From Myrmaecium sp. VS I D KN 1 (taxonomy: Eukaryota > Ascomycota > Dothideomycetes > Valsariales > Valsariaceae): 64,000 bases of DNA. Where the stretch lies: positions 186,001 to 250,000 of the forward strand of contig JADQAV010000027.1 of assembly GCA_019775845.1 (NCBI GenBank). The letters run 5' to 3'. Below, piece by piece: positions 5,777-29,182 of the stretch (the first letter of the stretch is position 1; the number at the start of each line of letters is the position of its first letter). The position numbers and the translations under genes were made by a program. Under the pieces are notes generated by a model that was given only the letters and a program-made list of their open reading frames with translations, was not told the DNA's origin and ran no database searches.

Positions 5777-8700
5777 TCATACGATCCTACCCACTGTCCC
5801 AAAAACGTCTTCGGCATTGACGACCTCATGTAGCCCACTGGGACCACGGCTGCTGCGCGAACTCATAGCGCTGTGTCTTCCCCCAGGTGCCATTAACGTG
5901 CCCGCTAGCGGTACGGGCCCTGGCCTCCGATCAATCGAGTAGCTGTTCGGCCTTGATTTATGAAGCACACCAACTTCCTGCTCGGAACCGCTGTCTGAAC
6001 CCCCCAGATGAATGCTGGGCGTACGCAAGCCATATGCGGATCGTCTGACGTTTGGTGTGGCAGGCTCATCATAGTAGATGCTTGAGAATGATGTTGCCGT
6101 CGAGCGGAGGAAAGCTGGGCGAGGGTGTGCGATTTTCTCCAGCTGGCTCGGATGTTGCGGCTTGTTCGCTTGTTGTGCCTGTGACCCGACGAGGCCGCCA
6201 TATGTCGGGCGCGCGGGAAGATCCAGCATCTGGTATGCAGCTTTACCAATCCACAGCATCTGTTCGTGTTCGCGGAGGTACCTTTCTCCGCTGAAGCTCT
6301 TCTGGACTATGCCGCGTGCCATCATGCCTAACTTTCGGCGCTGTGCTGCCTTATCGTACATCCTTTTTGTGATCTTCTCCACATCGGCTGGAGTCGGCTT
6401 AACTGGCAGCACAGGAGGAGGGCATCCTGGATCGTCCTCAGCATAAGCACTCCACTCCCCGAGCATGGCAAGGAGGTTGATTTGTGCTCTCGCAAGGGCG
6501 TAAGGGTCATTGGGCGCCACGACCTCGCTATATCTTTCGTTATCCTCAGGGTCCGTCAACACCCGAAGAGACGCTCCAACGTCGGTGCAGACAACTGGGG
6601 CCCCCGTCAGGGCGGCTTCACCTAGAGCGAGAGGCAAGCCTTCCGAGACTGAAGAATTGAGGAAGACCCATGTCTCAGCAAGGACTTTCGCAGGATCGGC
6701 TGTACCCTTCAAAGTGACACTTTCCCCAAGCCCTTTGCAAGCGATAATCTCCTGACACTCCGAAGAATAGACAGGAGCTTTGTTAAGCGCACCGTAGATA
6801 TCCAGACGATAATCCTTGAAGCCCCATTCATGGCTTATGATATCTGCCGCAAGAAGGGCGGTTTTGATGTCTTTTGCAAACCATACATGTGACAACATGG
6901 TGACAGTAGGCTTCTTGCTTTTGATCTCGGTAACCGGAGCAAACTTCTGCATATCGGTGATGCCGTTCACTACGGGATCAACCTTCCTCCGGAAGACATT
7001 CCTGTGTTCGAGTTGCCCATGGGCTGTCCCGATCTCAACTTCCCATCCCGGATTGAAGAAGTCTGCGCATGGAAGAACCTGGTCCGCGTGATAGAGGATC
7101 AGAGTCGAGGTCATCTTCATGAGGCCAAGGAGAGAGTTGCGGATGAAGGGTGGCAGTGTGCATAAAGCCGAGGAAAGATACAGATTGGTCTCCCGCCATG
7201 ATATGGCATGATCCCAGATCTGTAGAGTACAGTTGCGTTTGACCTTGCAAACGATCCCGTATGCCGCTGAAACACTATGATGCGAGGCTTGGAAGACAGC
7301 TGGGACTTGGTCTGGGATCGGGATGGAAAAGATGAACAGATCTGGCTTCGTCAGTCCCTGAATTCCTGAGAGAAGGATATGCACTGTACTTACATCGAAA
7401 CCAAAGGTCCAGCGCCGTGTCAAGATGACCTAGAGTTGGGCGTTCGGTATTGAACCACTCTGAAGGTGGCTTCGCGTTCGGAATGTTGTCGGCCAGCCAT
7501 AAATGCCTCCAAGCGTCTTTTACAATATCACTCGTCCAGATTTCCTTCCAGTGACGAGAGTCTTGAAAGTATGTATTGAGATTGACCAGTGCTCTCGTAG
7601 CCCGCAAAACATCTGCTTCTGACATATCAATGGCACGCGCACCGGTGACAAGGGCCGAAAGTGTGGGTATGAAATTGTTGCGAATGTCAACCTCAGTTGA
7701 TGGCTTGATCTTGAAGTCGACCTCGCTGTCCAGCTTATTGGAGAACATTCCATGCTGAGGATGGAGAAAGTCCAGTCCCCAAAGCGGGATGACCTTGAGA
7801 GATTCTACGTTCTGCTCCGTCTGGTGTTTGGGTAACCCGAAGTCATTCGCACTCTCAACAACCATGTGCCATCGAATAGTCCGAAGATTGTTGATCAAGT
7901 CTCTTCTGCATGCGGAGACCCCTCCTCCTTCATTAGGCCACGTCCCAGTATCAACGGCAAGAACATGGAGCTTGTCATCGGTGTCGGCTTGTAGTTCCTT
8001 TGTCCGGGTATAGACCACCGCGTCACCGCCTTGCCCGAAGCTGAAAAGATCACTCAATCGAATAGCCAGCGGTGTCCACCCACTGATATCCATGGTAAGC
8101 TCGGCACTGGCCATTACGGAGTCGGCGTGAAGAGCGAGGTATTGCTCAGCAGCGTGGAGATTGCCCATATCCCTACGTCTCCAGTATAGCTTCAGCAAAG
8201 ATTCTGTCCGTAACAATTGCTCATCAAGCCATCGCATGACGACACCATCGAGGTCTGTTCTCTCCTTCCATGCTTTCCAGAGCTGCGACCTAGCCTGCGA
8301 GGTAGAGGCAGGTAGTCGCTTGGTTGTCCTTCCAAAGAGTCTGCTGATCCATCCCACTTGGACAGACGTGAAGCTCATGATAGGATTCTCCTGAAGATAT
8401 GAAGTGGAGGTCGGCTTTTTGAGGACTCCGAGCCAATCATAACGAATCATATCGGGTGTATCGACAAGCTCACCATTCAGCTTGGTCCTTATGATTGGAT
8501 GGAATTTGTGATCGTACAACCATGTGCTCTCGTACACATCAGAGCCTTGTACAAATGTCGCCTCGGAAACTTGAGAATGTGGGATCCAACGGGTCATCTT
8601 TTCTGGGTGACGCACCGGTGGTACGCACCAACTGACTGTGCAGGTGATATGTGGCAGGACAAACTCGGCCCGCAGAAGTTCGTCAGAGTATCGGGCGTTC

Positions 8701-11700
8701 TTCCGGTAGTGGTATCTGAAACGGAGTAAATTCCCGTTAATCAAATAGCTACCAGATTCGGCATGGCCCTTGAAATTGTAGTAGATGACAGATCCTTCGT
8801 CCTTGCCACGGATACATGTCCGACTCATGGGCACATTCTCGTTATTCGGGACTTTACTCAGGCGCCGCGTTTGTCGAACGTTGTGGTAGTCGTAGATAAA
8901 TTCGTTCTGGACCTCACCCTTCAGGTATTCTTTCCGAACATAGAGCCTCATATCCTGAGAGTATCGGCTGATGGCTTTGAGCCCGGAGCCAGGTTCTTCC
9001 TTGTGAATGCCCTCATAATAACACAGCTTGAAGCCGCTCTCTGAAGGACGTATGAATGCGGTCTGCGGCTTGTCCAGGGCCTTGATCAGAATGCGGTTCG
9101 ACTTGAGTGTGATTGAGTCGCCCTTGATCGTCTCGGAGAGTTCCTTGACAGCCTTGCGGCCATAGAATAGGAAAAGCGGGATGGTCACGGACTGGAAAGC
9201 TCTGGTGTAAATCCATAATCCATTGAGGACGAAGTTTGTTGGCTTCGCAATCAACGCAGGCTTATTTGACAGGACGCAGTCCAGCTCGCGTTGGTATTCA
9301 GGATCAGCGACCGAAGCGATCCAGATGAACTTCACGCACATTCCCATTGCATGGTAAAGATACTCGATCTCGGACCGGATCCAAATCGGGATGGACTTGA
9401 TAGCTGATTTTGCAGAGGCCCATGAGCTTCGTCCTTGGATGTGACGAAAGTCCGTTGATCCTTCTTGATACGCCTCTTCTGCAAGCCTGATAGGTCCCTG
9501 GTTGCGGAAGTAGTTGTACTTCTTCGCTGCTAGGACAGCACCAAGGTCATACCTAGCGATCTTAGAGGAAAGGGAGCATCCTTCTTCGGCGGGAACATTG
9601 GATGCTATCCAGAAAAGAACCGTATCCGGCAGAACATGCTTTTCACCAAGGACTCGACTAAGGCATGCAGATCGGACGTCCAGAGGCAAGGACTCCCACG
9701 ATGTGTCGCAACGTACGCCAAAGCAAAGATGTCGTAGGAGTTCTCTCCGCGCGGCAGATGCAAGGTTATCCAAATCAAGCTTGGAAAAGTGGAAGGGTTT
9801 GGCTCGTTTCAGGCTCTCGGAAACCTGGTCAGAGGAGTCAAACTCGCCGCGGAGAAGCAAGGACTCGGCGATGCTCGCTTGGTCATGATTGAGTCCGAAC
9901 ATTGACTCAGCGCATGCGTGTATGAGAGTCTCCGCGATGACCTGGCAGTTGCTGCTGATATTGACAGTCCCGGATCCTGAATTCGAGTCAGATGCAACCA
10001 GCAGATAAAGGCGGCCGTCGGCATAGCAGCTGATTGCGCGAATGTCGGCTTCAGGTCTCACGACGGACCGCATAGAAACCAAATCAATCGTGATAGAACC
10101 GTTTTCCCATTTAGAGATGATGCGCTGAGTGTATCGTGAAATTAGAGGGAACGCGCTGCTGGCCAAACTAGAGGCCGGCTGCTCATTAGTCGAGTTCAGA
10201 AGAGCCTTTACTTCAACACCAGGATGGTCACTTGGGGTGATCTGAAAGTGATCTTCTTGGGGAAGTAGGCGCAAGGATTGGTAGAATGCTTCTAACTCGC
10301 TCTGGCTCCACTCATGCGTTACTCCAGCGCCGCTATAGGCATGGAAATGTCGATTTGAACGACCTGGAATCTGGACCGTCGACTCAAGTATATCCAATTT
10401 CGCAGATTCGGGATCTGAAGCCTTGAACAACTTCCGAAATCTGGACCTGATCGGGTTCATTGCTCCTACAGCGGAGAAGTTCTTTGGCATACGTAGGTTC
10501 GCCGTATGTATGGACAGCAATGCTGCGGTCCATGTCGCCGAGGCCAGTGCTATAACATCGTTATAGGCGAAGCTGGGTTGTAGCTCTTTGAGCGTAATGC
10601 CAACGATGAGACCGACGAAAACTGCTGTGAGGAGGGGGCCTAGAGTATGTGGTCCGGAGAAGATCTTGTTATACTGGTAGTAGAGAAGACCGGAGTACGC
10701 GCCCACGTAACTCAAGAACATGATCAAGCCCGGTCGTGAACCGTCGAGGATCCAGAGTAAGGCTGAACATAGTGCAAGGGTCCAGACATGCACCCCAAGG
10801 AACCGCGCAAGGGTGAACCAATACAGACGGAGCTTGAAACCAGCGTCTCGGAGTGTGGCGTTATGGATGTGCTTTGTCGATTCGATGGACAGCGGAATGG
10901 ACTTCTGGGCATTCTGATGGAGGAGCTGGGCTTTGTAGTCCAGAAGAACAGCTCCGATCAGATAGTATGCCAAAGAGAAGCCCACGCTGACCTTGAAAGT
11001 CTGGTTCAAGACAACACCCAAACCCGTCAGGGGCCCACCATAGAAGAGCACTAGCCAGCGATCCGCAAGTGCGACGCAGAAGTAGAGAACCCCACAAGCG
11101 ATCTCGTCTCCCGCATTTCGCCAGTGTATGAAAGAGTTGTGGAGCCTTATGCCTTTTTGGTTTTGCAGCAGACTTTCTCGAGCGACCTGAACCTCTAAGA
11201 ACCAGGTTGAGGAGTACGGAATTGGCCTTCGAACGTCCGATAGACGGCAATACCAGTCCAGAAGGAAGATAGTCGAGTCCCAGCATCGTGCTAACTCACG
11301 GACCAGAGGATCTGTCGTTGACTTTTGCCAGAAATGTCGATTCCTCTCTGCCATAACAGCAGCGTAGAGACGGTTGCGGAATTTGATCAAAATGGCAGGG
11401 TCCCTGAGTCCCTCGAGCGCCTTCTTCTCGGCTTCTCCCTGGGTCCGGTAGAACCATGCCTTCATGTCATTGTCGTCAATGACCTTGATATTATTATACC
11501 ATGTGACCCATTTCGAAGCTGTACGTGCAAGCCCAACCAAGAGGAGGGTAACAAAAGCATAGATGATACAAAGGTATATGATAGCGTCATAGCCATGTAC
11601 CCAGGTAGTCAATATGGGGGAGATGAATAGCGTGGGAATGAGACAGATTATTGTCCGTCGACCATTCAAGAACTAAGATCCAATGTAAGTATACTGTAGT

Positions 11701-14700
11701 AACAAGAGACTTAGGGAACTTACTGAAGTACCAGGAAACTGATAACTGGACAATGCCGCCAGGACCGTCAAATAGGTGGTTAAGCCAACGAGATAGAACA
11801 GAAAAACTGCTCCTTGCCCGACTGTGTCTTTGCAAGCGATGGCGATAAACCCAACCAAGCCAATCAGTAGGGCGATGGCAAGGCAACCAAGCAATCGTGT
11901 GAGTATGAACATGTTCGCTGCAGAGAACGCCATGGAGATCAGATAATAGGTACCCCCGATTGAAATCCATGTCCCGATCGCTCCTGACAGAAGCAAAGAT
12001 ATCATCAGGGCTATTGTGGCATGCTGCTGTTGACCCAAGGTCATCTTTGCGCTCAGGTAGAGGCCGCGTCCCGTCGTGGTCAGGAGGATGATATCGCACA
12101 ATGCAGGAATGGCAAAGACGGATAGGAATGTGAGGCGCTGGTAGCCGGGTAGCACAGATGGCTTCTGGGCTGGATCGATGTCGGTTTCAGCGGCGGCATA
12201 GGCTGACGCAAAGGCGGGAGCGTTCTCGATCCACATCGGTGGCTTGTTCTCTTCTCGGTTGTAGTAAGCTCGATGCTTCTCAGACAGTAGCTGGCCAAAG
12301 ATGCTCGGTGAGATATCGAAGTACGACTCGCAGCGTGACCCCAAGGCAAACAATTCGGCGAACGCAGCGCTCTGGTCGGAATACTCATTGAAGAGGGGGT
12401 TTCTGTCGGACACCTCGAGGTAGATCTCTTCGAAAGCCGCTTTTCGGGCTGCGCAGAAGACAGCCCATAGCAGGAAATCAGCGTATGGATCGAGCGGGCC
12501 AGATTCGACTGCCGCTTCTAATACAGCAGTGAGGCTTTCCAGATCACTATACCGACGCCGGAGCAGGATTTGGGAAAAGAAGGCGTCAATTTCCTTGAAC
12601 ATCTGGTGGGCAGTTGCGTCTTCGAGCCTCAGGTAATTATATTGGCGGTACCAAGAGAGACGACTCCGCACAAGAGCCTCGGAAGAGACGACGCCGCGGA
12701 TGTATGCCTCATTTGATTGCTCCTTCAGTTTCTTCCATGTGGGGACATCCAGAAGCTGCTCTTCGCAGGCCGTTCTCAAATTTGACAGTAACGGGCTCTC
12801 TTCCACGACGTGGGTGAAGTGAAGCTGCTGAAGAAAGAGGAGGAGATCAGTGGGCGATAGAATGCTCAAATCATGTTCCAGCCGCGGAGGCAATTTTTGG
12901 AGATCGTCCAGATCAGCCCTAATTCGATGAAACTCGTGTTCTGCGAGGAAACAATGGTAACGCTGGAAGTTGCGGCTGCTCAAGTATGTGTGCAGGATCA
13001 CGGATGGGACATCGTGTGCCGCCTTGGAGATGTAGATGACCGGCGTCCCGGTAGTGGGATCCCTCTCACTCACAGACCACATTTGAGCTCCATTAGGGGT
13101 ATGAAAGCCTGAGTCGAGACCTATGTATATCTCAAAGGTATCGCAACCGTCGGCATTGTCCGAAAGCCTGCGCAGAAGCTCCGCTAACTCGGATATCGTC
13201 TGCCTCATATGAGGTTGCTGCTCTAGCGAGATCGAGTCGGCGAACTTCTGGAAAAGAACTGACAAGTCTTTGGCAAGGGCCGGAGAGATCCGATCCAACA
13301 ATCTCAGGTCTCGCAGCTTCCTCTGTGACTGTAACACCTTCTCGCAATCCGTCTGAGTAATATCAAGCCCAACCGGAAAACAACAACCTTTAGGGCTCCA
13401 ATGCAACGGGCTCGCCTTGCTCTTTTCCATGTAACTCACCCAGTCAAGGGCATTGCGACCGTCATGGCCTCCGGAGATACTGTCTGTATGAGGGCCTTGA
13501 TCTTTTAAAGTGGAGGCGTTGGAGGAAGAGTCCAGCATGATATCCCTATACATCGCATTACGGAAAGGTCCGATGGCTGGTATGTAACTCTCAATGGTCT
13601 GAAGGGCCACGGGGTCCAAAGAAGGCGAAGAAGCAAGTACCCGAGTGGACCTGAACGTCTCATGAATCTTCATAACCTTCTTTTCTTTCAGCCACTGAAA
13701 TCCAGACAATGGTTCCGCATTAAAGGTGTTTTGGCGGGCATAGGTCAAAGAACTGGCGCTTCCAATCCAAACAAGAGCCCCGTGGTAGTTACACCACATG
13801 TACGACCTTCTCTTGACAGCATGCGAGAGGGATACACCATCAGCTACAGTTTCCCACATCATGACGGTGAAAGGGCGTAAGCAGGCCTGAGCTACGAAGG
13901 CCTTGGTAGTGGACCTCATCTTCTCGAGCCTGAAATAGTCTCTTTGTTCACCAGTCTCTCGCATGATTGTACCATTTCGGACGACCACTCCTGCAAAGGA
14001 CTGCAGATTGGGTTGCGGACTGACCTCAAGGAAGTCCGGCGGACCAACTTCGAGATAAGCAGAGAAGCCGAAAGCTGCGATCAGGTCCACGATCGTACTC
14101 AGTAGGTCCGGGTGCGGCAAAGCTTCCCATCCGGCCAGTAATAACCCGGTTACGCCAGTATCCTTCTCGGAAAGACTGCCTGCCCTTTGAATCACACCCC
14201 CAACTTTTTCGATCATCTGGAGCATGCGGACTTCATGGTTCCAAGAAGTCGGGTCGAGAAATACGCGCAAGTCCACACGCCCAATGATTTGTAGCCGAGT
14301 TTCCGAGTTTTCCCTCATACTCTTCGAGGCCTCCACCACCCCTCGCTGGGAAAGGTCAAGGATTATGGCATCCCATTGCGACAGTAGTTTGACTTCATCT
14401 TGCGTGAGGGGATCCGAAAATGTACCGAGGTACACGCCGAATGAGGCTGGCTCCTGACGAGAACGATGGGAAACTCCAGCTATCACGGACGATGTATTCA
14501 TCAACTCCTGAATGCGATTGGAAACAGAATGCGGTAATGGAGGAACGGACGATCTAGCCTTCGAAGAGGTCAACGAAAGGAGCCAGGACGGCAAGCGGAG
14601 TGTTTTCATACCTTGAACCAGCGACGAAGCGCGAGTAAACCACCCCATAATATTGCAATGAGTCCAGCGGCACCGCTCACTGCAACTATGAGGATTAGAG

Positions 14701-14773
14701 CCCATTCCCACCAAGTGTCTATCTTCACGCCGTGTGGAAAAGCATGCACGGAAATAATGTCGGCCTGTGCCAT
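5777..14773 (-). CDS. gtb3: Gtb3-type giant glycosyltransferase of the galactosaminogalactan cluster
   Basis: Four exons on the minus strand: 14773-14612, 14558-11724, 11672-7394 and 7341-5777; introns of 53, 51 and 52 nt; 2,946 residues. Predicted to polymerise GalNAc and Gal from UDP-sugars and help export the GAG chain at the plasma membrane. Exon 1 (54 codons, ATG at 14773) encodes one hydrophobic helix (about residues 24-49). About residues 95-330 look like a TIM-barrel, glycosidase-like region. Hydrophobic helices lie near 870-1030 and again through about 1450. A GT4 domain, related to bacterial PelF, spans about 2235-2790: DTGTWPNEGGGVSACRRDLI in its first half, MLSHVWFAKDIKTAL and SSVSEGLPLALGEAALTGAPV in the second. 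The tail is Ser/Pro-rich. The last acceptor (7342) was chosen because it restores WFRYLFIFSIPIPDQVPAVF and has a CTGAC branch site; two nearer AGs give a stop or a frame error. Identity rests on GT4 type, size, topology and neighbours. Confidence 0.87.
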
Positions 14774-16609
14774 CTTGATTATACCACTTTCCTCTCCGAC
14801 CCCCTGAGTTGAAGATGAAAGTAGATGAGCGCAACAGGAAATGAGTATGATAGTTGAGGAATAATAGACAACGAGTGACGAAGTTAAGATAGTAACATTA
14901 TTCCTCCATACACCACACGAACAGGGCGGAAGGTCGATGAGGATTAGGTGGCTGCCCAGTCAGGGAACAGGGCGACGTAAAGTACTGGACATGAAGGGAA
15001 ATGCAAGGTACCATTGGTATATATCAGGATACCCAGCTGCCAACGGCAACAATCTCTCTGGCCTCCCACCACATGTCGACTTGTACCCGCTCGACTAAGA
15101 GCGTGCGACAGGTTCCGACGCGCAGGTTCCCATCTTTCCAGGGCTACGGATCAGCGTGGAGCGTCGCGCGGACGTCCGCAGTCCATCCGACGACCCCAGC
15201 TGCCGCAGCAGCGTCGTAGCGACGTCGTAGCAGGTCTTCCATGCGACTCATCATGGCAAGCGGCAAGCTCACGGCCAGCACACGGTTCAGCTGCAGGTTG
15301 GCGAACGGAACGAAGAGAGTAGGAGGGTGCCAGTACTTCCGAGCGGATGCTGAAAAAAAAAACGAGTTGGTCATAGCACACGAAGGATCGACTTCGCTTG
15401 CCCCGGTCTATAGGGCCAGAAGGGGACTGTCAGAAACGAAGCCGGGTGAAGATGGACCGTCCGCACGAGAACGAGGGTTGGTTGGAGAGTGAGAGGTGAG
15501 GGAGAACGTCCAGCCGGTAGCCGCGAAGGTGGATTTGGTGGACCGGGGCGGGGTGCGGGCTGCCAGCTTGGCGCCTGTTCGTCGACCGAGCTGGAACGCG
15601 GCCGGGGCATCCCTGGACGGACACGCTCGCTGGCGCCCGCTGGCTGGCGCCGCTGGCTGGCAGGCCCCTGACATCTGCCCCCGGCGCCTCTGGCTGCTTT
15701 AACCGCCTGCACCCCCGCCCTCGTCGCCGCCCGCCATCCTCGCATAAGGTATCCTGCAGCATGCATCCTCTCCCAACCTCACTCCGCATCATGCAATACA
15801 CAGCAGCTGGCCAACCTTCGCCAAACACCCGATCTTCTCATGCATGCCTAGACTTGTGCGCTTTCCCTGCGGTCGAAGGCTCCGGCCTTTCAGCCGCTCC
15901 GTCAAATGACCGTAACAGGCGACCTGCCCGAAATCATCACCGGTATCTCCAGAGGGATCAATCGATCCGAGGCTTCAGAGAGCCGTGAAGACCCTCAGTC
16001 CTTAAGAGAGCCCAGGGCCCTGGTGCCTTTGACGACGAGCTATTGCAACGGAAGAACCGCTGTAGCTGGCCCGGAGGTGGTGCTCGGCTGCTTACTGACT
16101 ATTGGCTACCTACCTTAGTCTCGCTCGATTCGTATACGGATACTGAACTGCATCCTACGTAAGGCGTGTCACTCGAGGCGACCTTCTATTTTCGCTCCTA
16201 TCTGCCCCTGGTTCCTAGGCTCCAGCTATGCAGACTAGCTTCTGACCTGTGTGCAACTCATCCGCCACCGATGAATGGCGCCGGTCACATTGACCTGGTC
16301 GGCTGTGACTCGCTGCATCAGCGCAAGGGGATGGCTTGTTAGGCGGGCATCGTGCCGTCGAAAATCTCCCTTTCCGGTAATTCTGAGGCAGGTAGGTACA
16401 CTGTTTGGCTTGACTCGGACAGGGCTAGATGGTCCGGATATCGTTTGTTCGCAAAAGAACTTCTCAAACCGCATAGTAGTAGTGGACCCAGTCTCTCACG
16501 CGGACGCTGGCCGCTTTCTGAATGTCATTTCGAAGTTCATTTAATCGCCAGGCACGCCCCCCAAAGTTCATCTGAGTTCTTCAAGTCACTCGTTAACTTC
16601 TCTCGAACC
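14774..16609. promoter_or_regulatory. Divergent gtb3/agd3 intergenic region
   Basis: 1.8 kb between the oppositely oriented starts of gtb3 and agd3, so it must carry both promoters. It holds an A-run near 15353-15362 and GC-rich sequence at 15500-15720. Several short open frames exist on both strands between 15144 and 15988, but they overlap each other and show no domain, signal peptide or splice structure. A shared promoter would suit co-expression of polymerase and deacetylase; that is inference from layout. Confidence 0.5.
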
Positions 16610-18769
16610 ATGCTCCATCTCCACCGCCACCCCGTGATCGCGGCTTCGGCCGTCCTTCTGACTGGATTTTCCTGTGTTGTGCAAGCTCTCAGCGTTGCAA
16701 GCACTGTCTTAGTTCTTGCGCGAGATTCCACGACCGCTGCCGACGCTTACTCCGGTCTGCAAGGCTATGGTATCCCTTACGAAGTCGTCACTGTTCCATC
16801 CACTGGAGTAGCTCTGCCCACGTTGTCATCGTCGAGCAGCAGTGGCAACTACGGTGGCATCGTTGTCTTAAGCGAGGTCTCCTATCAATACGCCAATGGC
16901 TCCTTCTTGAGCGCGCTCACATCTGCACAATGGCAGCAGCTCTTCGATTACCAAACTAGCTTCGGCGTTCGCATGGTCCGTTTGGACGTTTACCCGAGTG
17001 CGGACTTCGGTACCACTCCTATAAACGGCAACAGCAACGACGAGCCTATCAGCCTTACCAACCTCACGGGCTTTCCGACGGCCAACCTGAAGGAGTAAGT
17101 CTGATAGTTCTTAGCATCAGCCGTGAATGGCCATCGAGATGCCCGATCATTCTTTTCTTGGATACTGCTTGAGACATTGTGCAAGGCTGACACGATTAGG
17201 GGTGCGTCGATGACTACTGCGAACATTTACCACTACCCCGCCACCATCACGAACTCATCCATCGCGTGGGAGATCGCCCACTTCGAAAACGCAGGAACGG
17301 CGGCTGTGATCAACCAGATCGGAGAACGCCAGCAACAGGCCTGGTTTTTGCCATTTGCAACCGATTGGTCTGCCACTTCCAACTTCCTTCAACATGCATG
17401 GATTCACTGGCTGACGAGAGGCCTGTATGTCGGGTTCCGACGGATCTACTTCAATACCCAAATCGACGACATATTCCTCGAGACGGATCTTTACCAACCG
17501 AACGGCACGACCTTCCGAATCCGGAGTGGTGACCTTGACGCTCATAAGTCTTGGATGACCACGCTCAACTCGAAGCTGCCCAGTGGGTCGGACTACTTCA
17601 TCGAACTTGGCCTCAACGGAAACGGAAACATTGAAGCTGCCGTTGTGGCCAACGATGCCGCTGGGACTTCCGTCTGCAATCCGGACACCGCCATCGAGTA
17701 TGACGAACAGGTCGATACACCTCTCGAGTTCCAGAAGCCTCTTGGAACGGGCACCGATATCTGGCCCAGTACCCCGACCAACTATACTTGGTCACTAGCC
17801 TGTGCGCAGCTTGATTCTCTCGAAGTATGGCTCACCACCGCATCCAACCGAGATGCCTTTGCCTTCGTGTCCCATACCTTCAGCCATGAATCTCTCAACA
17901 ATGCCACGTACGCCGATGCCTACAAGGAAATCGACTTCAACCAAGCCTGGCTTCAGCAAGTGGGCTTCACGAGTGCCGCTCGATTCTCGCCCAACGGAAT
18001 CATCCCACCCGCCATCACCGGTCTACACAATGGCGACGCCATCCGCGCCTGGATGGATAACGGCATTATATACGTCGTCGGCGACAACACTCGGCCGGTG
18101 CTTCGCAACTCCGACACCTTCTGGCCTCTGATCTCCACAGTTGCGGACAACGGCTATGCGGGCCTCACGATCGTCCCCCGATGGGCGACGACGATCTACT
18201 ACAACTGCGACCTCCCCGACTGCACCACCGCCGAATGGATCAACACGTCCGGCGGCAGCGGCACCTTCACCGACCTGTTGGCCGACGCGAAGGCGACCAA
18301 CTCGCGGAACCTGCTCGGCCTGCACTGGGACCCGTTCATGTTCCACCAAGCGAACCTGAGGCAGACCGACGTCGCCTCCACCACGATCAACGGCGTGACG
18401 GCGCAGCTGTCGCTCCTGCAGATCTGGGTCGAAACCGTCACCCAAGAGATGACCCGGCTGACGGACTGGCCGATGATCACGCTCAAGCACGACGACATCG
18501 CCCAGGCCTTCCTCGCCCGCATGGCCCGCGACCAGTGCGCGCCCAAGCTCACCTACAACTACGCGGACGACGGCAAGAGCATCGTGAGCGTCACCCTCAC
18601 CGCCACCGGCAACACCTGCTCCACCGCCATCCCCGTCACGTTCCCCGGCCCGGTCACGTCGGCGAACGGCGGCACCACCGAGCAGGTCGGCTCCGATCCG
18701 CTCACCGTCTGGGCTACCCTGAGCGGCTCCGCGCAGACCTTCACCCTCAGCACTCCTGTCGCTGTCTAG
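16610..18769 (+). CDS. agd3: Agd3-type GAG de-N-acetylase (CE18), secreted
   Basis: Two exons, 16610-17094 and 17200-18769, intron 105 nt with a GCTGAC branch site; 684 residues. In A. fumigatus Agd3 removes acetyl groups from GalNAc residues of GAG in the cell wall or medium, making the polymer cationic and adhesive. The start MLHLHRHPVIAASAVLLTGF opens a signal peptide with likely cleavage near residues 25-30. The N-terminal part is a beta/alpha region (Agd3 proteins carry a CBM87 module); the deacetylase domain follows. Metal-site candidates are visible: the paired Asp in NTQIDDIFLETD (about 251-252) and the HTFSH motif (His about 387 and 391), with RFSPNGIIPPAITGLHNGDA just after. There is no C-terminal GPI signal. 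Oddity: third codon positions become almost all G or C from about 18180 to the stop, unlike the first two thirds of the gene. Confidence 0.92.
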
Positions 18770-19360
18770 GCGATGTCGCTGACCGGTTGCTTTGCCTTCT
18801 TTCCTTGTGTTCTAATGTATGCTATTTATCGGTTCTTTACGATTTCGCGAAATCGGGGTCCTGATGAGCCTGCCTTGACGGTCCCCCACGATCGTGCCGG
18901 CACACGCACGACTCATGAAGGCTGACGGTTGCTGTAATGCACGATGAGGATTGGGACGTGATTATCCTGGTATCGCTTAATATAGCTTCAATCACGTGGT
19001 GATGTCTATATATATCTACCTACATAGTATATATATCTTGCAACCTCGTTTGAACTTGAAAATCATAGTGACCGAGCGGCCGAAGAGCTGCGATGGTACT
19101 TGCATGCAGCAGCGTCAGGAACGATTAATTCCTTATCCATCTAGCTGTACATACCTACTGCAGGGAAAGCTGCGATGTTACCTTTTATCTGGGTCGCTGC
19201 GAGAGCGAAAGCGAGAGCGAGAGGCGAGTGAGTGGCACCACATCTCCCCCTTCACACCCCGCTTCCGTCCAGTGACCAGGCGATGCATCGCGATGCCCTG
19301 CACGCCCTCCTCCCTCCGCCATCGCGCGTACTATGAACGTGTCTGTGTGTGTGGCTGACA

Positions 19361-19388
19361 GAGCCTGAGCCTGAGCCTGAGCCTGAGC
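19361..19388. repeat. GAGCCT hexanucleotide tandem repeat
   Basis: About 4.7 perfect copies of a 6-bp unit in the non-coding gap between agd3 and ega3. Confidence 0.9.
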
Positions 19389-20141
19389 ACACCGCACAGG
19401 ACATGATCCAAACACTAGTAGCAAAGCGAGTCTAGGATCCCCCCAAAAAAGAAAAGAAAAACCAATAAGACAAGTCTTGCCCTCACCTCTCCCCTCCCTC
19501 TCTCTCTCTCTCGGTTAAAACAAAAAAGCAGTCTGGCATGGCATGCTTCGTATGTACTGTAGGCGTGCCACGTCGGCCGAAGTCCGTTTAAAGTATGTAA
19601 TGTAGGTTGCTATTTAGCTAATCAAACGGGGAGTGGGACGTGGAGCGATTGGTGGTAGGTGGGGCGCCCGGAATAAGCGAAGCAAGGGCGGGGGATGGGG
19701 ATGGGGATGGGATGCGAGCGGGACCCGGGGAAGGGGATCGACCGCTAATCTTGGGGGGGCGGGGTCCGTGGGTGGTCGTGGTCGTGAGGTGGTCGTGCCA
19801 TCCCTTCAATCCTCCCTTCCTTCCTGCCTTCCTTCCTTTCCGTCTCCTTTTTTTGCACGCCGCTTTTTTTCTTCACTCTCACCCCCTTCCCTCCTTCACC
19901 CCTTCACCCCTTCACCCCTCATCTCCCGCGCCCAATCTATCATCACCTGTTACTGTAGTAGTGAGTTGAGGTTAGTCACGGAGACACAGCCTGTCATCAT
20001 CTATTACTACCTATGTAGTGCTGGCCAGGTGACTCGGTGTGTCCGGTCCGGTGCACAAAGGCCGTTCTCATGGGCAAAGACACGAGCGCTTCGATATTTT
20101 CTTCGCGTGCGGGTAGGTTAACAGAAGGGGAGGTGGAGGCG

Positions 20142-20189
20142 CAGCACCAGCATCAGCACCAGCACCAGCACCAGCACCAGCACCAGCAC
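20142..20189. repeat. CAGCAC hexanucleotide tandem repeat
   Basis: About 8 copies of CAGCAC with one variant (CAGCAT), roughly 490 bases upstream of the ega3 start codon. Copy number is likely to vary between strains. Confidence 0.9.
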
Positions 20190-20674
20190 GCCAATACATA
20201 ACGTGGTCGCTCTCCTTGCTTGGCCGCAGCTTTTACCAGCGTCAAAGAAAACTGAACTAACTACTGGAGCGCGAGGCTGTCTGGACCCTTCTTCCCCTTC
20301 ACCCCCTGCCAGCCGCAGCTGACGGCTTACCGACAAGCGACTGACGGAAAACGGACAAACCCCATGCTCACTCCGCAGCCGCTCGCTCAATAACTTTTCA
20401 TATCCTCGTTCCCTTGGCTTGCTTTCTCACCGGTGCATGCTCGTGGCTCCTTTCCTTTCCTTTCCATTTTCTTTCCATTCACTTCCCTTTCCTTCTGCTG
20501 CTCAAGTCATCTTTCGTCTTACCCAACTGCTCGCCCCTCGTTTCTTTCCGCGATCTCGCGATTTCCTCACAGCTTCCGTCATCCTTTCTGAGCACGAAGA
20601 CGATCGCCTCACCAGCCTTGCGCGAGACCGTCCAAAGCGACAACGACTAGAACCGCGAATCGCAGCCGCGCATC

Positions 20675-21827
20675 ATGTCGAACCATCATCTCGAACCGGG
20701 CCCAGGCCACAAAACGTACGGCGACATGCCCGCCTACCCAACCAAGAAGCAGTCATGGTGGGGGCGGCTGTCCGGCAAGATGAAGCTGCTGCTGTTCGCC
20801 CTCGTCCTGCTGCTGCTCGTCGGGCTGGCCGTCGGGCTCGGCGTCGGCCTGACCGTCGGCAGCGGTGGGGGGAACGGGAGCGAGAGCGGGGAAGAGCCCC
20901 ACCCGACCTTCACGCCCACCTCCTCCGCGACGCCGATCCCCGGCGTCTGGCAGCCGGCCGTCAACAGCAGCTGGCAGATCGTGCTGCTCGCGCCCATCGA
21001 GCTGGCCGAGGACGCCACCTCCGTCTCGCCGGACGTCGACGTCTTCGACCTCGACCTGTTCACGCACAACAAGACCACCTTCGACACCCTCCATCGGCTG
21101 GGCAAGAAGGTCATCTGCTACTTCAGCGCGGGCTCGTACGAGGACTGGCGCCCGGACGCGGACGACTTCAAGGATGCCGACAAGGGCGAGGAGTTGGACG
21201 GCTGGGAGGGCGAGAAATGGCTCGATCTGAACAGCGCGAACGTGCGCAAGATCATGGCGAAGCGGATCGCGCTCGCGAAGGAGAAAGGATGCGACGCGAT
21301 CGACCCCGACAACGTCGACGGCTACGTAGGCATTTCCNNCCCCCCCCCCCCCCCCCCCCCTCCCGCCGAACAAGGCATCCTCAAGCAAATCTAACCGTCC
21401 CCATCGCACACAGCAAAACAAAAACGGCTTCGACCTCACCGAAGCGGACTCCATCTCCTACCTGCGCTTCCTCTCCGCGCACGCGCTCAACCACTCGCTC
21501 GCCATGGGCCTCAAGAACGCCGGCGACATCATCCCTTCCGTGCTCAACATCACGCAGTTCAGCGTGAACGAGCAGTGCGTCGAGTACGACGAGTGCGACA
21601 CCTTCCGCCCCTTCGTCGAGTCCGGCCGGCCGGTGTTCCACATCGAGTACCCCTCCGCCGCGCCCCGCGTCAAGGCTGCTGTGCGCCAGGACTACTGCGT
21701 CCACACCGGTGACGCGGAGGGCAGCGCGAACTTTAGCACCGTGCTCAAGAAGATGGATCTTGATGGCTGGGTGGAGTATTGTAGTGGGTTGACGGCGAAC
21801 ACGACGGTGAACGCTGATGGGAGTTAA
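20675..21827 (+). CDS. ega3: Ega3-type endo-alpha-1,4-galactosaminidase (GH114), membrane-anchored
   Basis: Two exons, 20675-21325 and 21414-21827, 354 residues. Ega3 of A. fumigatus cuts alpha-1,4-linked galactosamine stretches of de-N-acetylated GAG. The N-terminus is a short hydrophilic cytoplasmic segment followed by one hydrophobic helix (about 37-62), so the enzyme looks type II membrane-anchored with the catalytic domain outside; a Gly/Ser/Pro linker runs to about residue 92. GH114 motifs: WQIVLLAPIE (100-109), VICYFSAGSYEDWRPD (146-161), and AIDPDNVDGY (208-217), which carries the likely catalytic Asp; HIEY near 293-296 supplies the likely second acid. The intron falls straight after DPDNVDGY and contains two unknown bases and a 21-base C run, so its exact length is uncertain, but both exon edges are in frame. 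Codons are strongly GC-ending. It is transcribed in the same direction as agd3. Confidence 0.9.
21338..21360. repeat. Poly-C tract with assembly ambiguity in the ega3 intron
   Basis: Two N bases (21338-21339) and then 21 consecutive C, beginning about 14 bases after the GTAGGC donor. The N bases show that the assembler could not resolve this homopolymer, so the length is unreliable. Confidence 0.9.
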
Positions 21828-23142
21828 AAAAGATGCGGATAATGCGGTGAATAAGCGGCGGCGGCGTGCGACTGGCCGTCGAACTAACCATACCTGATCG
21901 TTGTACAGTAAGAACGGGGTGAGCGAGAGTGGGAAGAAGAAGGACCACGGCGAGGAAAGGGTACCCACCTCCACTCCCATCTCTACCACATCCACCCTTT
22001 CCCTGCAGACACCCAGATTCCCAGATCATGTTGGGCCAATTGGTATTTGCCCTTTCCTTGCCTTGATGGGAGGACTTCCCCATCGCTGCGCAAGGACAGC
22101 AACACAAAGAAAGAGAAACAGCCGTGCTCTTTCCACACCACTGCACACATCACACATCATACCCCATATATCGTTAAAACACGACGCGACCGAACAGCTG
22201 TCGTTTTCTTTTTTCTGTTGTCTCTTTCTTTCTTTGCCTTTGCAGAGTCGCAATGGCATGCAGACGAATGTCAAGGTCAAAGAGCAATACAAAAAGCTCC
22301 GGTCGGCAGACTGATGCCCATCTCTCGTCAGTCCACATCATACCTTCTGTGATCTCTCCCCTCTCTCCTATCGCCGCTAGGACTGTATGTATATACAGTA
22401 TGTAAGTAGGTAAGTCCAAAAAGATCCCGGACCCACCAACTCCGCGCTCGTTGCAGCAGGCAGGAGCCGTAGCAGCGCGCACCTCACCACACTGCCCGCG
22501 AGACCAACGCGAGAAGCCTTCACCCTCACCTCACCTCACCTTAGCTCAGCTCCGCTCTTAAGAGAACCTGACTCCCACTCCCTCCCTAGCTAGGGATTCA
22601 GGGTGCGAGGGGATGCGGACGGGAGGGGGACGACCGGATCGTCAACCAGGTTTTGGGTTTGGGTTGTTGAGGCGGGACGGGACGGGAAGTGGGAAGGACC
22701 TAGGTTGGTGGGGTGAGAGGTGAGGGGTGAGAGGGGAAGCTTTTCCGCGTTCGGGATTCAGGAGCGAGCGAGCCATCAAGCGAAGAACGAAAAATCACAT
22801 AGGTATACCTACTTACACACATAATTTTGACTTACAAGCCTACCTTGTACCAATTTACACCTCAAGGGTGACTTCGTGGTTACTGCTACAGCGTGGGAAC
22901 TGCGATGGTATACATACGATACTCGGTGACACTCCGAAGCCACGCTCAGCCACGAGATAATTTCCATCACGTTTTTCCCTTCACGACTGCCGTTCGAGAT
23001 GCCGACAGCGCCGAGAAGGGAGTCCAGTCCAGGGTTCAGGAGTAGACGGAGACGGACAATGTAGCCTTTCCCGTCCAGCACTCCACCCGGTTCATATCGC
23101 AGGCGCCTTCCAACGGTTCCCGCCGTGCGACGAGGTGGAGGC

Positions 23143-23169
23143 GGACGTGGACGTGGACGTGGACGTGGA
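23143..23169. repeat. GGACGT hexanucleotide tandem repeat
   Basis: About 4.5 perfect copies in the ega3-sph3 gap. Confidence 0.9.
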
Positions 23170-24609
23170 TATACTGTACATACTGCGCGGTATATTGTAG
23201 GCTGTGAGCGTTTCCGGTTCGCGTGCGCCAGGCAGTCACATGCAGGTTCCCTTTTGGGGGCGTCTAGGTTAGTCGTCTTCTCTTCTGCCAAAGGTTTCCA
23301 TCTTCATACAGTAGGTGGAAGATGCTCTGTCTGCCCCCACTATTGTATAGTAGATTGATCAAGGCTGTCTTGAGCGTGCCAGCTCCCAGCGTGTTTCTTC
23401 GCGCGACCGGCGACCCGCCCTGCCGACGCTGCCATCGGGACGGGCATCGAGTCTGGTCTGGGGCGTGGGCGCGGTGGCCCGCCGAGAGCTGGAGAGGTAA
23501 GATAATCACGCCGACCTGCGTGACAGGACTCCAGCTGGAAGGGGGGCGCACCTGGAAATAAGAAAAAAGTATCAGCCAAGAAATGAAGGCGGCAAAGATG
23601 AAGGATCAAAAGGAAGGTCATTCCGCCGCGGCCTCCTCCTCCGCTGCGGCGTGGGCGTGGGCAAGGGCGTGGGCGACCGTTACATAAGTACTAAAAACTC
23701 GTCTGCGTTGTGACATTGGGGGATTCGATATTACTTTAGCTAGCCCTCGACAAAGGGGCGCACGTAAGCGAAGTCGGACCCAAGAACGTGTCAGCATTTG
23801 TTTCCTCAATCTTTTGAGGTGAGGAGAGAGAGAGAGGGAACACCACGGCCCGATACCATGGCCCGCCTGCCTCATTCCGTTCTCTCCTCAACTCCTCAAG
23901 CGTTACGACCGCCAGCTCGCTTGCAGAACAGCAAGGCAGAACCGGTACGCTGCAGTGAGGAATTATGCACTGATTTCACGCGTTCACTGGGTGCGTTTGA
24001 GGTGCCCGGTATCCAGGTGGTGCTGCTGCTGCGGTGCTCTGCCCTGCGGAAATTAGGAAGGGTACCTGCCTGAGGCCGAGAAAGATTGGTGTTCACGGGT
24101 CTTTGCAGTCTGTGTACGTACTTGTACTAGGTATGATTATGGTACCTATGTACACACTCAGCATAAAGTCGGTCCGGTATAGTGCTATGTAAGTAGACTT
24201 GGGTTGGCCGGGTCCGCGGCTTATCCGCTGTACGGTACGTAAGTGACGGTAAGTCTCTACAGTACAGCACTTGCTTACCATTTACATACTCACTTCTGTA
24301 TAAGACCATAACAGGCGGAGGGTCCCGGGACCATCGGTAGCACTTCAATCAGGCAGACAAGGAGGCCAGGAAGCGAGGAAGACGACGCGAGGAGGCAACC
24401 AACCATGCAAGTCTCGCGATGCACGGGGCTAGGATGTCGAAATAGACTCGCATCCTCACGCCAATGGATGCCAAGCGGCACGACGATCTCGCGTAGTCCC
24501 TCCCTCCCTCCTCACCCCGCAACGCCTGCGGCGGCTGAAGGAGGGGGGCCCTCGCCTCGCCTCGGCGCCACGCAAGGACCAAGGAACATGGGCAATGGCA
24601 TGCATGGCA

Positions 24610-24648
24610 GGGGCAGGGGTCAGGGGCAGGGGTCAGGGGCAGGGGCAG
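24610..24648 (+). repeat. G-rich tandem repeat, G-quadruplex candidate
   Basis: Six runs of four G separated by loops of two (CA, TCA-type three) bases, in copies of GGGGCAGGGGTCA. The pattern fits the standard intramolecular G-quadruplex rule on the plus strand. Confidence 0.85.
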
Positions 24649-25968
24649 ACGGGACACCCATGGCAGCCCCAGGCGCCTGGGCGGCCGGGCGTGCGGGCGG
24701 GAAGTTAACTTTAGCTACCCACCTTCCTCCTTTCGGATTTTCTGCATCTGCATCTGCATCGATGTAAAAGCAGCGGGTGGAGAGACCAAATCGGGGGCTC
24801 CGCGGGCAACTGAGTGGCAAGCCCCCTCACGCCTTTCTCCACAATTTGGCACAGCGAGCCTCGGGGATGTCCCCTTCAGCACCTGCAGCCACGAAAGAAA
24901 AGGAAGGCGTGATGAGACTGTCAGTCCGAGCCAACAGCCCGTTGAAGCAAGCCATGGTAAACGTCTGTAAGTGCTGTAAGTGGTATAGGCAGGGCGCTCA
25001 GGGCGCCCGTCATGGCCTCGCCCACCAGGCGGCGTGCGGTACAGCGCGCCCTCACGGCGACATCGGTCCGGCGCTGCTGACATCCCAGTCCATGATGCCA
25101 AGCCCGGTCATCAAGGCAATTTCCAGGTGCTCCTCTGGCTCGTCGCTCTTGTGCAACGAGGACGGCGGGTTTCCTCCAAGTTCGACGCATGATGCCCTCA
25201 TTTCCTCCGTCCTGGCGTCATCCAACGTCGGCCGGAAGGTAAAAGAGAGTCGGCGACGGTCGATGTCGGCGGCCATCTCCCCGTTCTTTCCGTATTTGCC
25301 AATAGAAACATACATGGGGCTGACCTGCATGTGCGCCGCGACAACTCAACTGTTAGGTCATCCCATCGTGTCCTTCAACGGCTCTTCAGCTAGCCAGTGA
25401 GACAGCCCACATGAACGGGCAACAAACGAGGTCGCCACGATCATTGCCTGGAGAAAAGGTGTGCCTCGGTGAGCCGGTGCCGACTTCATGGCAGTGCTCA
25501 TCGGCTGTGAAACGTCTCGCATTTGGAATAGAGTGGGAGGTTGCGTTGACCAACCGCCCGTGAAGGCTCTTGGCTGATCCGGATGGGGAAACATGCGGCA
25601 ATGTACCGCGGCCCTTTTAAGCGGCCTTGTACAACCAGCACTTTCCCTTCTCGCCTCCTTACGGTTTGCAGCTGTGCCCGCCGACGCAGCCAAGCCTTAA
25701 CTCTCCGAGCGCCACCCCATGTTGTCGCTGTACATCCTGCGGAAGGCCGTAAGACAATGCCACGTTCAATTTTTCCCTGGACTTTCTGTATATACATGGA
25801 TCAGGAGGATGGTTGCGTATCTGCATGTCATCCGAGCACTCTGCTGCTTCGCTGGGCTCGATCCCAAAGTTTCCATTGCATTCGTGACATCTCGACCGGA
25901 TCTGACCGCCAGAACTCTGGCTGACGGTGCCGTGGGTTGTGTGCCAGGTTGGTCCCAGGCCGGAACGA

Positions 25969-27133
25969 TCACGCCTTCTCCACCGCGTCAACGAAATCCC
26001 CCAATTTCGGGCTGAAGGATGCATAGTAATCGTCGCTAAGGTCGGTCAAGAAAACGTGGCCGCAAACCGTGTGCATCTGCCTGACGAGCTTCCTCAGTTG
26101 CCTGCCCGACATCGTCGGCGGCGCCGAATGCACGAGGCACGCCAGCTTGCGCCGCGCACATGGCAGCGTTTTGATGATGTTCTTTGCATGGAGAGCGTTC
26201 CAGTTCTCGAAGGTTTGCTCGAAGACGACCGTCACATCAGCTATGTCCAGGTAATTCGGGACATCGTCTTGGAAGTACCGTGGGTCCGGTACGGTCCCAG
26301 GGTTGTACACTGTACATCGTTCTGTTTAGCAGCATTCTTCATAGATAGAACGGAACGAGCATGCTTCTGAATTTAGCGCGGCTGCCCCGCGGACGAAAAT
26401 AACCCTCCAATCGAGGCAGAGAAAGGAAAATCGAAGGAGAAACCAATTCCGTGGGCAACCACAGTGAGGAGGAAAAGGGACAGAGTTGAAACTCCTGATG
26501 TGGCAGGGGCAACAACAGCAGAAAACGTGGCAGAGACCAAAATTGTAACGTTGTGACAGTGACAAAAGAGGATTCACTAACCGACAAAGCCATCCGCCAA
26601 GCCGCTGACAGTGCGGACAGCCTTTGATATGGCCTGGAGATACCGGGTATGATCAGGATCGTACTGAGCGGGCACTTCGTCAAAGAACACTCCCTGTAGC
26701 GCCAACGAGGGCTCCTGAGCCGCCCAGGCAGCGTAGGTGGCGACCTCCTGCACCACCTGCCCTAAGGGCTTCATGCCCCAATTCACCGCCACATACCCAA
26801 TCCTCCGAACGTTGGGATAACGATGGAGATGAGACAGCGCCTTGGTGTAATTGGCATCCGGCGTTGCAACCGGACCACTAGCCGGGTTGATTATCAAGGT
26901 GAACTCCAGCTGCGTATCACAAAGTCTATCGTCATGAGAATGGAGCGAGAAGGGAGTTAGCGATCTGCGGAGATGTATGACGTGAACCGTAGTTCGAGCG
27001 CGAATGCTTACAGCTGGTATAGCGGATCCCACGCGCTGGCACCGTCGGATCCATGCGAGGGGTAAATGTAGAGCGGTACAAGGACAGTAGCGGCGCGTCG
27101 AGATCGCATTCTCAAAAGCTTCCTCAACACCAT
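25969..27133 (-). CDS. sph3: Sph3-type GAG glycoside hydrolase (GH135, spherulin-4 family)
   Basis: Three exons on the minus strand: 27133-27012, 26925-26582 and 26309-25969; 268 residues. Sph3 is an endo-acting hydrolase that cleaves GalNAc-containing GAG and is required for GAG production in A. fumigatus. Family signatures in order: AATVLVPLYIYPSHG and AWDPLYQL, LEFTLIINPASGP, GYVAVNWGMKP, GVFFDEVPAQYD (acidic catalytic candidates), VYNPGTVPDPRYF, DVTVVFEQTFENW, and a C-terminal HVFLTDLSDDYYASF. Each junction restores these motifs. Intron 2 is 272 nt, far longer than the others in this window. Oddity: the predicted N-terminus MVLRKLLRMRSRRAAT has no clear signal peptide or membrane helix; an in-frame stop lies just upstream, so an unseen 5' exon is possible. 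The start is therefore less certain than the body of the gene. It diverges from uge3. Confidence 0.88.
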
Positions 27134-27769
27134 CTCAGCTTGCCATAGGACGACCCAAATTTAGTGAAGAGAGGTCTGAACGAGTGAACAAAGTGGGCAT
27201 GGGAGTGGTTGCTAGCGAGAAGGGCTGAGAGCTTCGCCTATCCTGACAGTCAGCCTGTACGATGGCCCTCGCTCCGAAGCGCTTCCGAATGAATTTGCTC
27301 CAATGCGCACGCGCGCCCACCCAGACCCGAAACGGCACAGTCCGATCAGCCCGACTGTGTTCACACACCCAGATCCAGAACTTCGCCTGAAATGGACTGC
27401 CAGCTAATCGAAGATCGCGCCCTTGAGACGGGTCCTGAGTGTCGTGGCCGGCTATTGACACTGCAGGGACTATTGACAGAGAGTCACGTCTCCAAGGACG
27501 CTGGGGAAACCAACGGCCAGCCGCACTTCACTAATCGCGCCCGCATTCAAGGCAAGGGACGCGGTCGCCATGTTCCGATCTATCCTATTCAAGCGAAGGG
27601 ATCAGATGCGACATTGTTCGTCGTTTTCCCACACTGACCCGTTAAGCTGTTACACTTTAGCCCCAAGGCTGCATTTATATAAGATTTCCCCACGTACCTG
27701 ATTTTGTATCTAATCATCCACCGATCCTTCCTCAATTCGAACCTGTTGCCCTGCTTACCGATCCTTCCT
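27134..27769. promoter_or_regulatory. Divergent sph3/uge3 promoter region
   Basis: 636 bases between two oppositely oriented starts. A TATATAAG element at about 27676-27683 lies some 90 bases before the uge3 ATG and is a good TATA-box candidate. An open frame on the minus strand (27135-27461) ends next to the sph3 start but is in another frame and resembles no family. Confidence 0.55.
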
Positions 27770-29182
27770 ATGGATAGCTTTTTCCACATGGGTGCCTGCA
27801 CTCGATCTCCTTCCCCTTCGCTATCCGCATGGTCAAGTTCAGTGGGGACAGTCAACAGCCCCACCACCGACCGTTCTGCTATCTCCGATGATGAAGATAT
27901 CCTGGAGGAGCCTCTGGATATTGTAGGAGATGATTCGCATTTCATCATGGTTGTTGGTGGATTGGGCTTCATTGGCTCGAATACAGTGCTCGAGCTTGTG
28001 AAAGCCGGCCACAATGTTCTCATCATTGACGACTTAAGCAACGCTTTCGAGGATGTTTTGGACCGAATCAAGTATCTCGCCGCTAGCTACTACAGCGACA
28101 AAGGCGGAGCAGTTCCCTTAATCCACTTTCGCAGAATGGATTATCGAAGCCCAGCCATGCAATCGGTCCTTGCCGAGTATTCGTCGTATACTTTGAGCGG
28201 CCCTCCGTATTCTGCGAAAGGCGCAGGAGTCGAAGTAACCAACCCGAGGATCTCTGGAGACAGCGAAAATCGCGGTTCCACCATCTTGCGCCGCGAATGC
28301 AAGATTACCGGTGTCATCCACTTCGCTGCGTTCAAATCAGTTGAAGAAAGCATAAGAAAACCTCTGCAATATTATCAGAACAATGTTGTCGGTCTCGTCA
28401 ATTTCCTCTCTCTGCTCCAAGAAGTTGGCATCCGGAATTTCGTATTCTCCTCCTCGGCAACGGTGTACGGCGGAATGGCTAATATCGGTGCTCCGCTGAG
28501 GGAAGAATACCTGGTGCATCATCCGGAGACCTACGTCGACTCCGATGGACGGGAAGTGGCAGCAATCCAAGGCAGCCTCGGGATCACGAATCCTTACGGA
28601 AGGACCAAATACTTCTCTGAATGCATTCTGGCCGATTTGGCGAGGGCGGACCCGTCATGGAATATTACTGCACTTCGCTACTTCAATCCGGTCGGCTGCC
28701 ATGAGTCCGGGCTCCTGGGGGAGGATCCCCGACAGAAACCGAGCAATCTCATCCCCGTTGTTGCGCAAGTTTTGACAGGACAGAAACCGCAGCTTGAGAT
28801 ATTCGGCAGCGACTGGAATACGCCGGATGGAACGTGCGTGCGGGACTTCATCCATGTAACAGACCTGGCACGTGGCCATATCGCGGCTCTTCGTGCCGCT
28901 GCAAGTGGGCGCATTAAGGAGCCCTTCCGCGCCTACAACTTAGGTACAGGAACTGGCCATACCGTGCGGGAGGTGGTAGAAAGCCTTGAAGCCGTGTCTG
29001 CGAAGGAGATACCTGTTGTTGAGGTAGATCGGAGAGCAGGAGACGTCGGCTTCTGTGTGGCAGATGTGAAACGAGCCGAAGCCGAACTCAGTTGGAAAGC
29101 CAACAAAACATTAGAAGACTGTGCGAGGGATGTATGGAACCACACCTGTAGCCGATGCGAGAGCTTAAAGTTGGATTCCTGA
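27770..29182 (+). CDS. uge3: Uge3-type UDP-glucose/UDP-GlcNAc 4-epimerase
   Basis: Single exon, 470 residues. Uge3 is the dual-specificity cytosolic epimerase that supplies UDP-Gal and UDP-GalNAc for GAG in A. fumigatus. It is an extended short-chain dehydrogenase with the NAD-binding motif VVGGLGFIGSNT (about 61-72), DDLSNAFEDVLDR, the HFAAFKSVEES segment, the active-site Ser in SSSATVYGG (about 226) and the YGRTK catalytic pair (Tyr 276, Lys 280), then RYFNPVG and the C-terminal GTCVRDFIHVTDLARGHIAA and YNLGTGTGHTVREVV. A 60-residue N-terminal extension rich in Ser and acidic residues precedes the Rossmann fold. I chose the ATG at 27770; the frame is open further upstream but has no ATG. 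Cluster position favours Uge3 over a housekeeping Leloir epimerase. Confidence 0.9.
   Translation: MDSFFHMGACTRSPSPSLSAWSSSVGTVNSPTTDRSAISDDEDILEEPLDIVGDDSHFIMVVGGLGFIGSNTVLELVKAGHNVLIIDDLSNAFEDVLDRIKYLAASYYSDKGGAVPLIHFRRMDYRSPAMQSVLAEYSSYTLSGPPYSAKGAGVEVTNPRISGDSENRGSTILRRECKITGVIHFAAFKSVEESIRKPLQYYQNNVVGLVNFLSLLQEVGIRNFVFSSSATVYGGMANIGAPLREEYLVHHPETYVDSDGREVAAIQGSLGITNPYGRTKYFSECILADLARADPSWNITALRYFNPVGCHESGLLGEDPRQKPSNLIPVVAQVLTGQKPQLEIFGSDWNTPDGTCVRDFIHVTDLARGHIAALRAAASGRIKEPFRAYNLGTGTGHTVREVVESLEAVSAKEIPVVEVDRRAGDVGFCVADVKRAEAELSWKANKTLEDCARDVWNHTCSRCESLKLDS

Follow-up and report, generated by a model that had tools for sequence, protein, structure and literature searches.

Five intact genes, gtb3, agd3, ega3, sph3 and uge3, fill positions 5777 to 29182 of the window, which is the whole 64,000-nucleotide stretch of DNA from Myrmaecium sp. 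VS I D KN 1 analysed here (186001-250000 of contig 18, in a genome of 25.66 Mb and 66 contigs). The fungus is a filamentous ascomycete, and the five genes almost certainly constitute an intact cluster for galactosaminogalactan (GAG) biosynthesis. Their orientations are - + + - +, and the span runs from the stop codon of gtb3 (5777) to the stop codon of uge3 (29182). The genes are as follows:

5777..14773, minus strand: gtb3, GAG synthase, 2946 amino acids, four exons (14612-14773, 11724-14558, 7394-11672, 5777-7341)
16610..18769, plus strand: agd3, GAG deacetylase, 684 amino acids, exons 16610-17094 and 17200-18769, intron 17095-17199; the product has an N-terminal hydrophobic signal, CBM87, a CE18 domain and a C-terminal domain
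20675..21827, plus strand: ega3, GH114 endo-alpha-1,4-galactosaminidase, 354 amino acids, exons 20675-21325 and 21414-21827, intron 21326-21413
25969..27133, minus strand: sph3, GH135 (spherulin-4) hydrolase, 268 amino acids, exons 27012-27133, 26582-26925 and 25969-26309
27770..29182, plus strand: uge3, UDP-glucose/UDP-GlcNAc 4-epimerase, 470 amino acids, single exon, divergent from sph3

The models were built from stop-to-stop reading frames, with splice sites picked by eye and verified by translation. None of the five contains an internal stop, and the longest intron among them is the second of sph3 (272 bases). A preliminary description of this DNA had placed the five genes at these coordinates and in this order, each in its expected family and with its catalytic motifs intact; the gene models and Pfam confirm the placement, and the family matches that follow are strong in both Pfam and the PDB.

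Agd3 exceeded the curated Pfam cut-offs for Agd3_CE (2.4e-186, 619.5 bits), CBM87_Agd3 (5.2e-53, 180.4 bits) and Agd3_C (3.6e-28, 97.6 bits), and residues 28-683 matched the solved Agd3 structure 6nwz at 9.4e-255. The residues named for the Aspergillus fumigatus enzyme are D377, D378, H510, H514, R613, M666 and H668 (PMC7229062), and all seven residue types are present in the window protein as D251, D252, H387, H391, R489, M542 and H544, counted by hand on an alignment in which the numbering of chain 6nwz is shifted by a constant 122. GH114 was matched over its cut-off in both ega3 exons (1.2e-45, 156 bits and 1.1e-34, 120.1 bits), and Ega3 aligned with the endo-alpha-1,4-polygalactosaminidase structures 6ojb (2.8e-95) and 6oj1 (6e-95). 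The nucleophile and acid/base pair D189/E247 (PMC12054363) corresponds to D212 and E270 by a hand-counted alignment, and the protein carries one N-terminal membrane segment (Kyte-Doolittle hydropathy 2.96). A single sph3 exon exceeded the Spherulin4 cut-off (2.4e-32, 112.8 bits), Sph3 matched the spherulin-4 structure 5c5g at 8.2e-58, and its Asp-Glu pair and further Glu (D123, E124, E186) are invariant in all 17 rows of alignment A3, made up of the window protein and 16 of its 35 homologue matches. The seven published Agd3 residues and two published Ega3 residues are therefore kept and the Sph3 acids are invariant.

Uge3 matched Pfam Epimerase at 3.8e-38 as well as the GalE family, and its Cys429 aligns with Cys307 of human GALE. 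A small residue at this position admits UDP-GlcNAc. Uge3 has the small residue of a Uge3-type bifunctional 4-epimerase, and dual-substrate activity is predicted from its sequence. The sole other epimerase gene found in the genome, on contig 66, has Leu at the position of Cys429 and is 42, 36 and 48% identical to Uge3 in three pieces, values that are consistent with the 39% identity of A. fumigatus Uge3 and Uge5 (PMC5598270).

Gtb3 has one N-terminal hydrophobic segment, 10 more at residues 863-1360 and a GT4 domain at its C terminus. Three regions of the protein are distinguished:

6446..6985, minus strand: PelF-like GT4 stretch (Pfam Glyco_trans_1_4 4.5e-16; NCBIfam PelF 1.1e-21)
8433..9119, minus strand: beta-rich stretch (approximately residues 1851-2079), defined by a weak fold likeness
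13764..14483, minus strand: putative N-terminal (beta/alpha)8-like domain (approximately residues 80-319), from a low-confidence model and conserved blocks

PelF was the top NCBIfam match of the C-terminal piece, with the runner-up at 5.6e-11, and no other Pel protein appeared among the NCBIfam matches of three Gtb3 pieces, the genome not having been searched for PelB, C, D, E or G. Pfam DUF3492, a PelF-associated domain, was matched weakly (0.027). The folds that weakly resemble the beta-rich stretch include the beta-sheet add-on present in GT4 enzymes (TarM, SdgB, GtfA). Homologues of Gtb3 numbered at least 113 with exon 3 as the query, where scoring was limited to the 8000 candidates with the most shared words, and three with exon 2. 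Plenodomus lingam P0097 is colinear with residues 1-2275 at 50% identity and several other homologues are colinear over long stretches, which supports the gtb3 gene model. The GT4 part is 72-74% identical to its counterparts in A. niger, A. wentii and A. sclerotialis; the A. niger protein, An02g11410 (72.4%), has a locus number near that of An02g11320, the A. niger Uge3 orthologue (PMC5598270). The top match with an organism name, third overall, was from Elasticomyces elasticus (77.5% over 640 residues).

In a six-frame profile search of the 25.66-Mb genome, for which the counts are lower bounds, no match to Agd3_CE, GH114, Spherulin4 or the PelF-like GT4 turned up outside the GAG locus. Assuming random and independent placement, the chance of four genes falling within one such span of the fifth is approximately 1e-11; with single-locus families, clustering of this kind exceeds chance.

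From work on A. fumigatus, A. oryzae, Metarhizium robertsii and Neurospora crassa we infer which polymer is made, in what order the steps occur and that the product has an adhesive role. Cytosolic Uge3 would convert UDP-Glc to UDP-Gal and UDP-GlcNAc to UDP-GalNAc, and the C-terminal GT4 domain of the membrane protein Gtb3 would polymerise these UDP-sugars, with the chain leaving via the membrane segments. Secreted Agd3 would then strip acetyl groups, making the chain cationic and adhesive, and membrane-anchored Ega3 would cleave deacetylated stretches outside the cell. Sph3 is expected to cleave acetylated stretches; because no secretion signal was found, it would here most likely do so on the cytosolic side or leave by another route.

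Several observations weigh against assigning the locus to this pathway. The splice sites were placed from the sequence. Gtb3 fell below the curated cut-off of the PelF model NF038011, scoring 77.5 bits against 100 (72.6 in the genome scan), and PelF matches below the cut-off occurred in 14 of 14 control genomes, one of which passed it, so a match of such height is not specific in itself. The parallel with the bacterial Pel operon drawn in the preliminary description thus holds in so far as the GT4 domain resembles PelF and a deacetylase and hydrolases accompany it, but not as far as membership of the PelF family: judged by sequence, Gtb3 is PelF-like by resemblance and lies outside bacterial PelF by the cut-off test. 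Finally, the Sph3 model contains no 19-residue window with a Kyte-Doolittle value of at least 1.6, although no signal-peptide program was run.

Alternatively, the five genes could form a paralogous, GAG-like cluster producing a hexosamine polymer that is related to GAG but distinct from it; A. fumigatus Uge4 might belong to a cluster of this type. A. fumigatus does have this second epimerase, 58% identical to Uge3 (PMC5598270), and in the GT4 part the A. hiratsukae homologue P0112 shares just 58.6% identity with the window protein, where the three Aspergillus species named above reach 72-74%. However, the window contains the complete set of five genes, four of the families occur at the GAG locus only, and Gtb3 is much nearer to An02g11410, the A. 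niger protein whose number lies close to that of the Uge3 orthologue, than to P0112 in a comparison that did not extend to the neighbourhood of Uge4; a paralogous cluster is accordingly very improbable. There is similarly little chance that the cluster is a silent relict without expression, given five intact frames, including the 2946 codons of gtb3, and the retention of the catalytic residues published for Agd3 and Ega3.

An intact GAG cluster thus remains the preferred reading, and two of its components, the unanchored Sph3 and the Gtb3 barrel, depart from the textbook picture. A. fumigatus Sph3 is membrane-anchored (PMC8647848, PMC12054363), but no membrane anchor was found for the window protein. 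It begins with a basic stretch followed by approximately 11 hydrophobic residues that form the first barrel strand, which could be a weak signal candidate. Sph3 might be secreted after all, if a 5' anchor exon was missed or if this short start acts as a signal, and in addition to the anchored A. fumigatus enzyme the sph3 of a second fungal cluster, described below, encodes a transmembrane segment directly before the barrel (3.14 by the same hydropathy measure, which serves as a positive control). Nevertheless, no 19-residue window of at least 1.6 was found in three frames of the 680-base interval that ends at uge3, where the single window above 1.3 (1.31) crosses a stop codon, and 14 two-exon models of sph3 reached a hydropathy of only 1.22, no three-exon models having been run. 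Furthermore, the closest homologues, from Glonium stellatum (52%) and Lepidopterella palustris (50%), also start just before the barrel, and 30 of 35 homologues lack a window of at least 1.6 within the first 90 residues, which five possess; these 35 are matches to an unanchored query, are predicted genes and may in part lie outside GAG clusters. Secretion of Sph3 is therefore considered unlikely.

The location of Sph3 could bear on mechanism: why GAG synthesis requires a hydrolase is an open question (PMC8647848), and deletion of sph3 in A. fumigatus abolishes GAG production. In N. crassa the GH135 deletion mutant remains adherent (PMC11356417), indicating that the requirement for Sph3 varies between fungi. 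An Sph3 without a visible export signal offers a natural test of where the enzyme works.

The N-terminal domain of Gtb3 contains eight conserved blocks, ordered as in an eight-stranded barrel; it is conserved and is predicted to be (beta/alpha)8-like and cytosolic. The tied best fold matches of its low-confidence model include PelA (5tcb, 9cgy, 5tsy), GH191 (2aam, 9eux, 9euz) and GH114 (9ep6), which account for 7 of 50 VIA rows; Foldseek returned nothing at E <= 0.001 with this model, which argues against a specific family. In the register of this weak model, none of 14 sequences has Asp among the last three residues of strand 4 (AGW or a variant), although Glu follows in six, and the end of strand 6 has Arg in 13 of 14 and Gln in the other where Glu would be expected. 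The usual catalytic acids of the barrel would therefore seem to be replaced.

It is possible, if doubtful, that this cytosolic module is a relative of the galactosaminidase barrels (PelA, GH114, GH191) that formerly cleaved the polymer, has lost the usual catalytic acids and now binds the chain or the donor, and that the export signal of Sph3 has been lost in this lineage, so that proteins with hydrolase folds would work on the cytosolic side of Gtb3 and not on secreted polymer. It is rather more probable that the domain is a TIM barrel unrelated to galactosaminidases, that it is catalytically active through a different active site, or that the model is wrong. An unrelated fold or a wrong model has to be reconciled with eight conserved blocks that follow the order of an eight-stranded barrel and with the 7 of 50 VIA rows that are PelA, GH191 or GH114. 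If the galactosaminidase relationship were true, a hydrolase-like barrel forming part of Gtb3 would be relevant to the initiation, measurement or release of the polymer.

Beyond the window, a GTDB scan with an alignment of the Gtb3 middle region (A4) yielded 86 pattern matches, with a single locus confirmed, on NYXK01000054.1, a 95-kb contig titled as a Deltaproteobacteria metagenome-assembled genome. Here gtb3 occupies two open frames in different phase, agd3 and sph3 lie in exon-like pieces, and uge3 is also present. The locus was considered as a bacterial counterpart of Gtb3 and rejected, since these intron-like breaks make the contig look fungal and it is taken to be mis-binned; no other prokaryotic relative of Gtb3 was found in GTDB at the sensitivity of that scan. 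In this second cluster the order is agd3-uge3-sph3-gtb3, GH114 was not found in its assembly, and Uge3 has Ser at the position of human GALE Cys307. Since it differs in both order and content, the A. fumigatus-like order in the window is not a given. Three further contigs of the same record carry Spherulin4 matches.

Within the window, ega3 and sph3 are separated by 4.1 kb (21828-25968) in which no gene was recognised; two open reading frames at 24312-25400 had no Pfam match. The ega3 intron contains two N (21338-21339) followed by approximately 20 C, either an assembly gap or a hard-to-read repeat. Upstream of the cluster, positions 634-5381 hold VPS28, a Methyltransf_16 (lysine methyltransferase-like) gene and NPR2. 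The gene directly downstream of uge3, at approximately 30436-32588 on the plus strand, encodes a transcription factor of the Zn2Cys6 type (Zn_clus 5.1e-08, Fungal_trans 1.2e-09), a possible candidate for a regulator of the GAG cluster. We know of no link between these four neighbours and the GAG pathway. Further along the plus strand are a large histidine kinase (53412-57877; two long open frames, the PAS, HisKA and HATPase domains lying in the second) and an open frame with DUF7732 (60498-61223; 9e-55).

Clusters of this kind are already known and widely reported: a survey of more than 250 fungal genomes found the GAG cluster in 28 species, the majority syntenic (PMC4817252), and the cluster is functional in A. 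oryzae (PMC6753227). The locus described here extends that list by one fungus, for which a sticky GalNAc polymer with partial deacetylation is predicted. The bacterial Pel system combines a GT4 enzyme of the kind that Gtb3 resembles, PelF, with a deacetylase and hydrolases, including PelA, for a GalNAc-containing cationic polymer (PMC9030451), although Gtb3 falls short of PelF itself by the score given above. Among fungi, M. robertsii has the same five genes, working outside Aspergillus, but in an order and orientation that differ from A. fumigatus (PMC8224951). N. crassa (NCU05132-05137) shares the five families and requires the synthase and deacetylase for adhesion to glass, but its cluster has a sixth small gene and a different gene order in addition to the adherent GH135 mutant (PMC11356417). 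The A. fumigatus cluster (Afu3g07860-07910) has the same five families, the same catalytic residues at the Agd3 and Ega3 positions compared above, a one-segment Ega3 and an N-terminal signal on Agd3. Its order, gtb3-agd3-ega3-sph3-uge3 as listed in PMC6753227, fits Afu3g07860, 07890 and 07910 (PMC10647056), the comparison being with this listing and the locus numbers and not with a map. In contrast, the serine-rich region at residues 38-129 of A. fumigatus Agd3 (PMC4817252) is absent from Agd3 of both the window and the second fungal cluster, and Sph3 is anchored in A. fumigatus but has no membrane anchor in the window.

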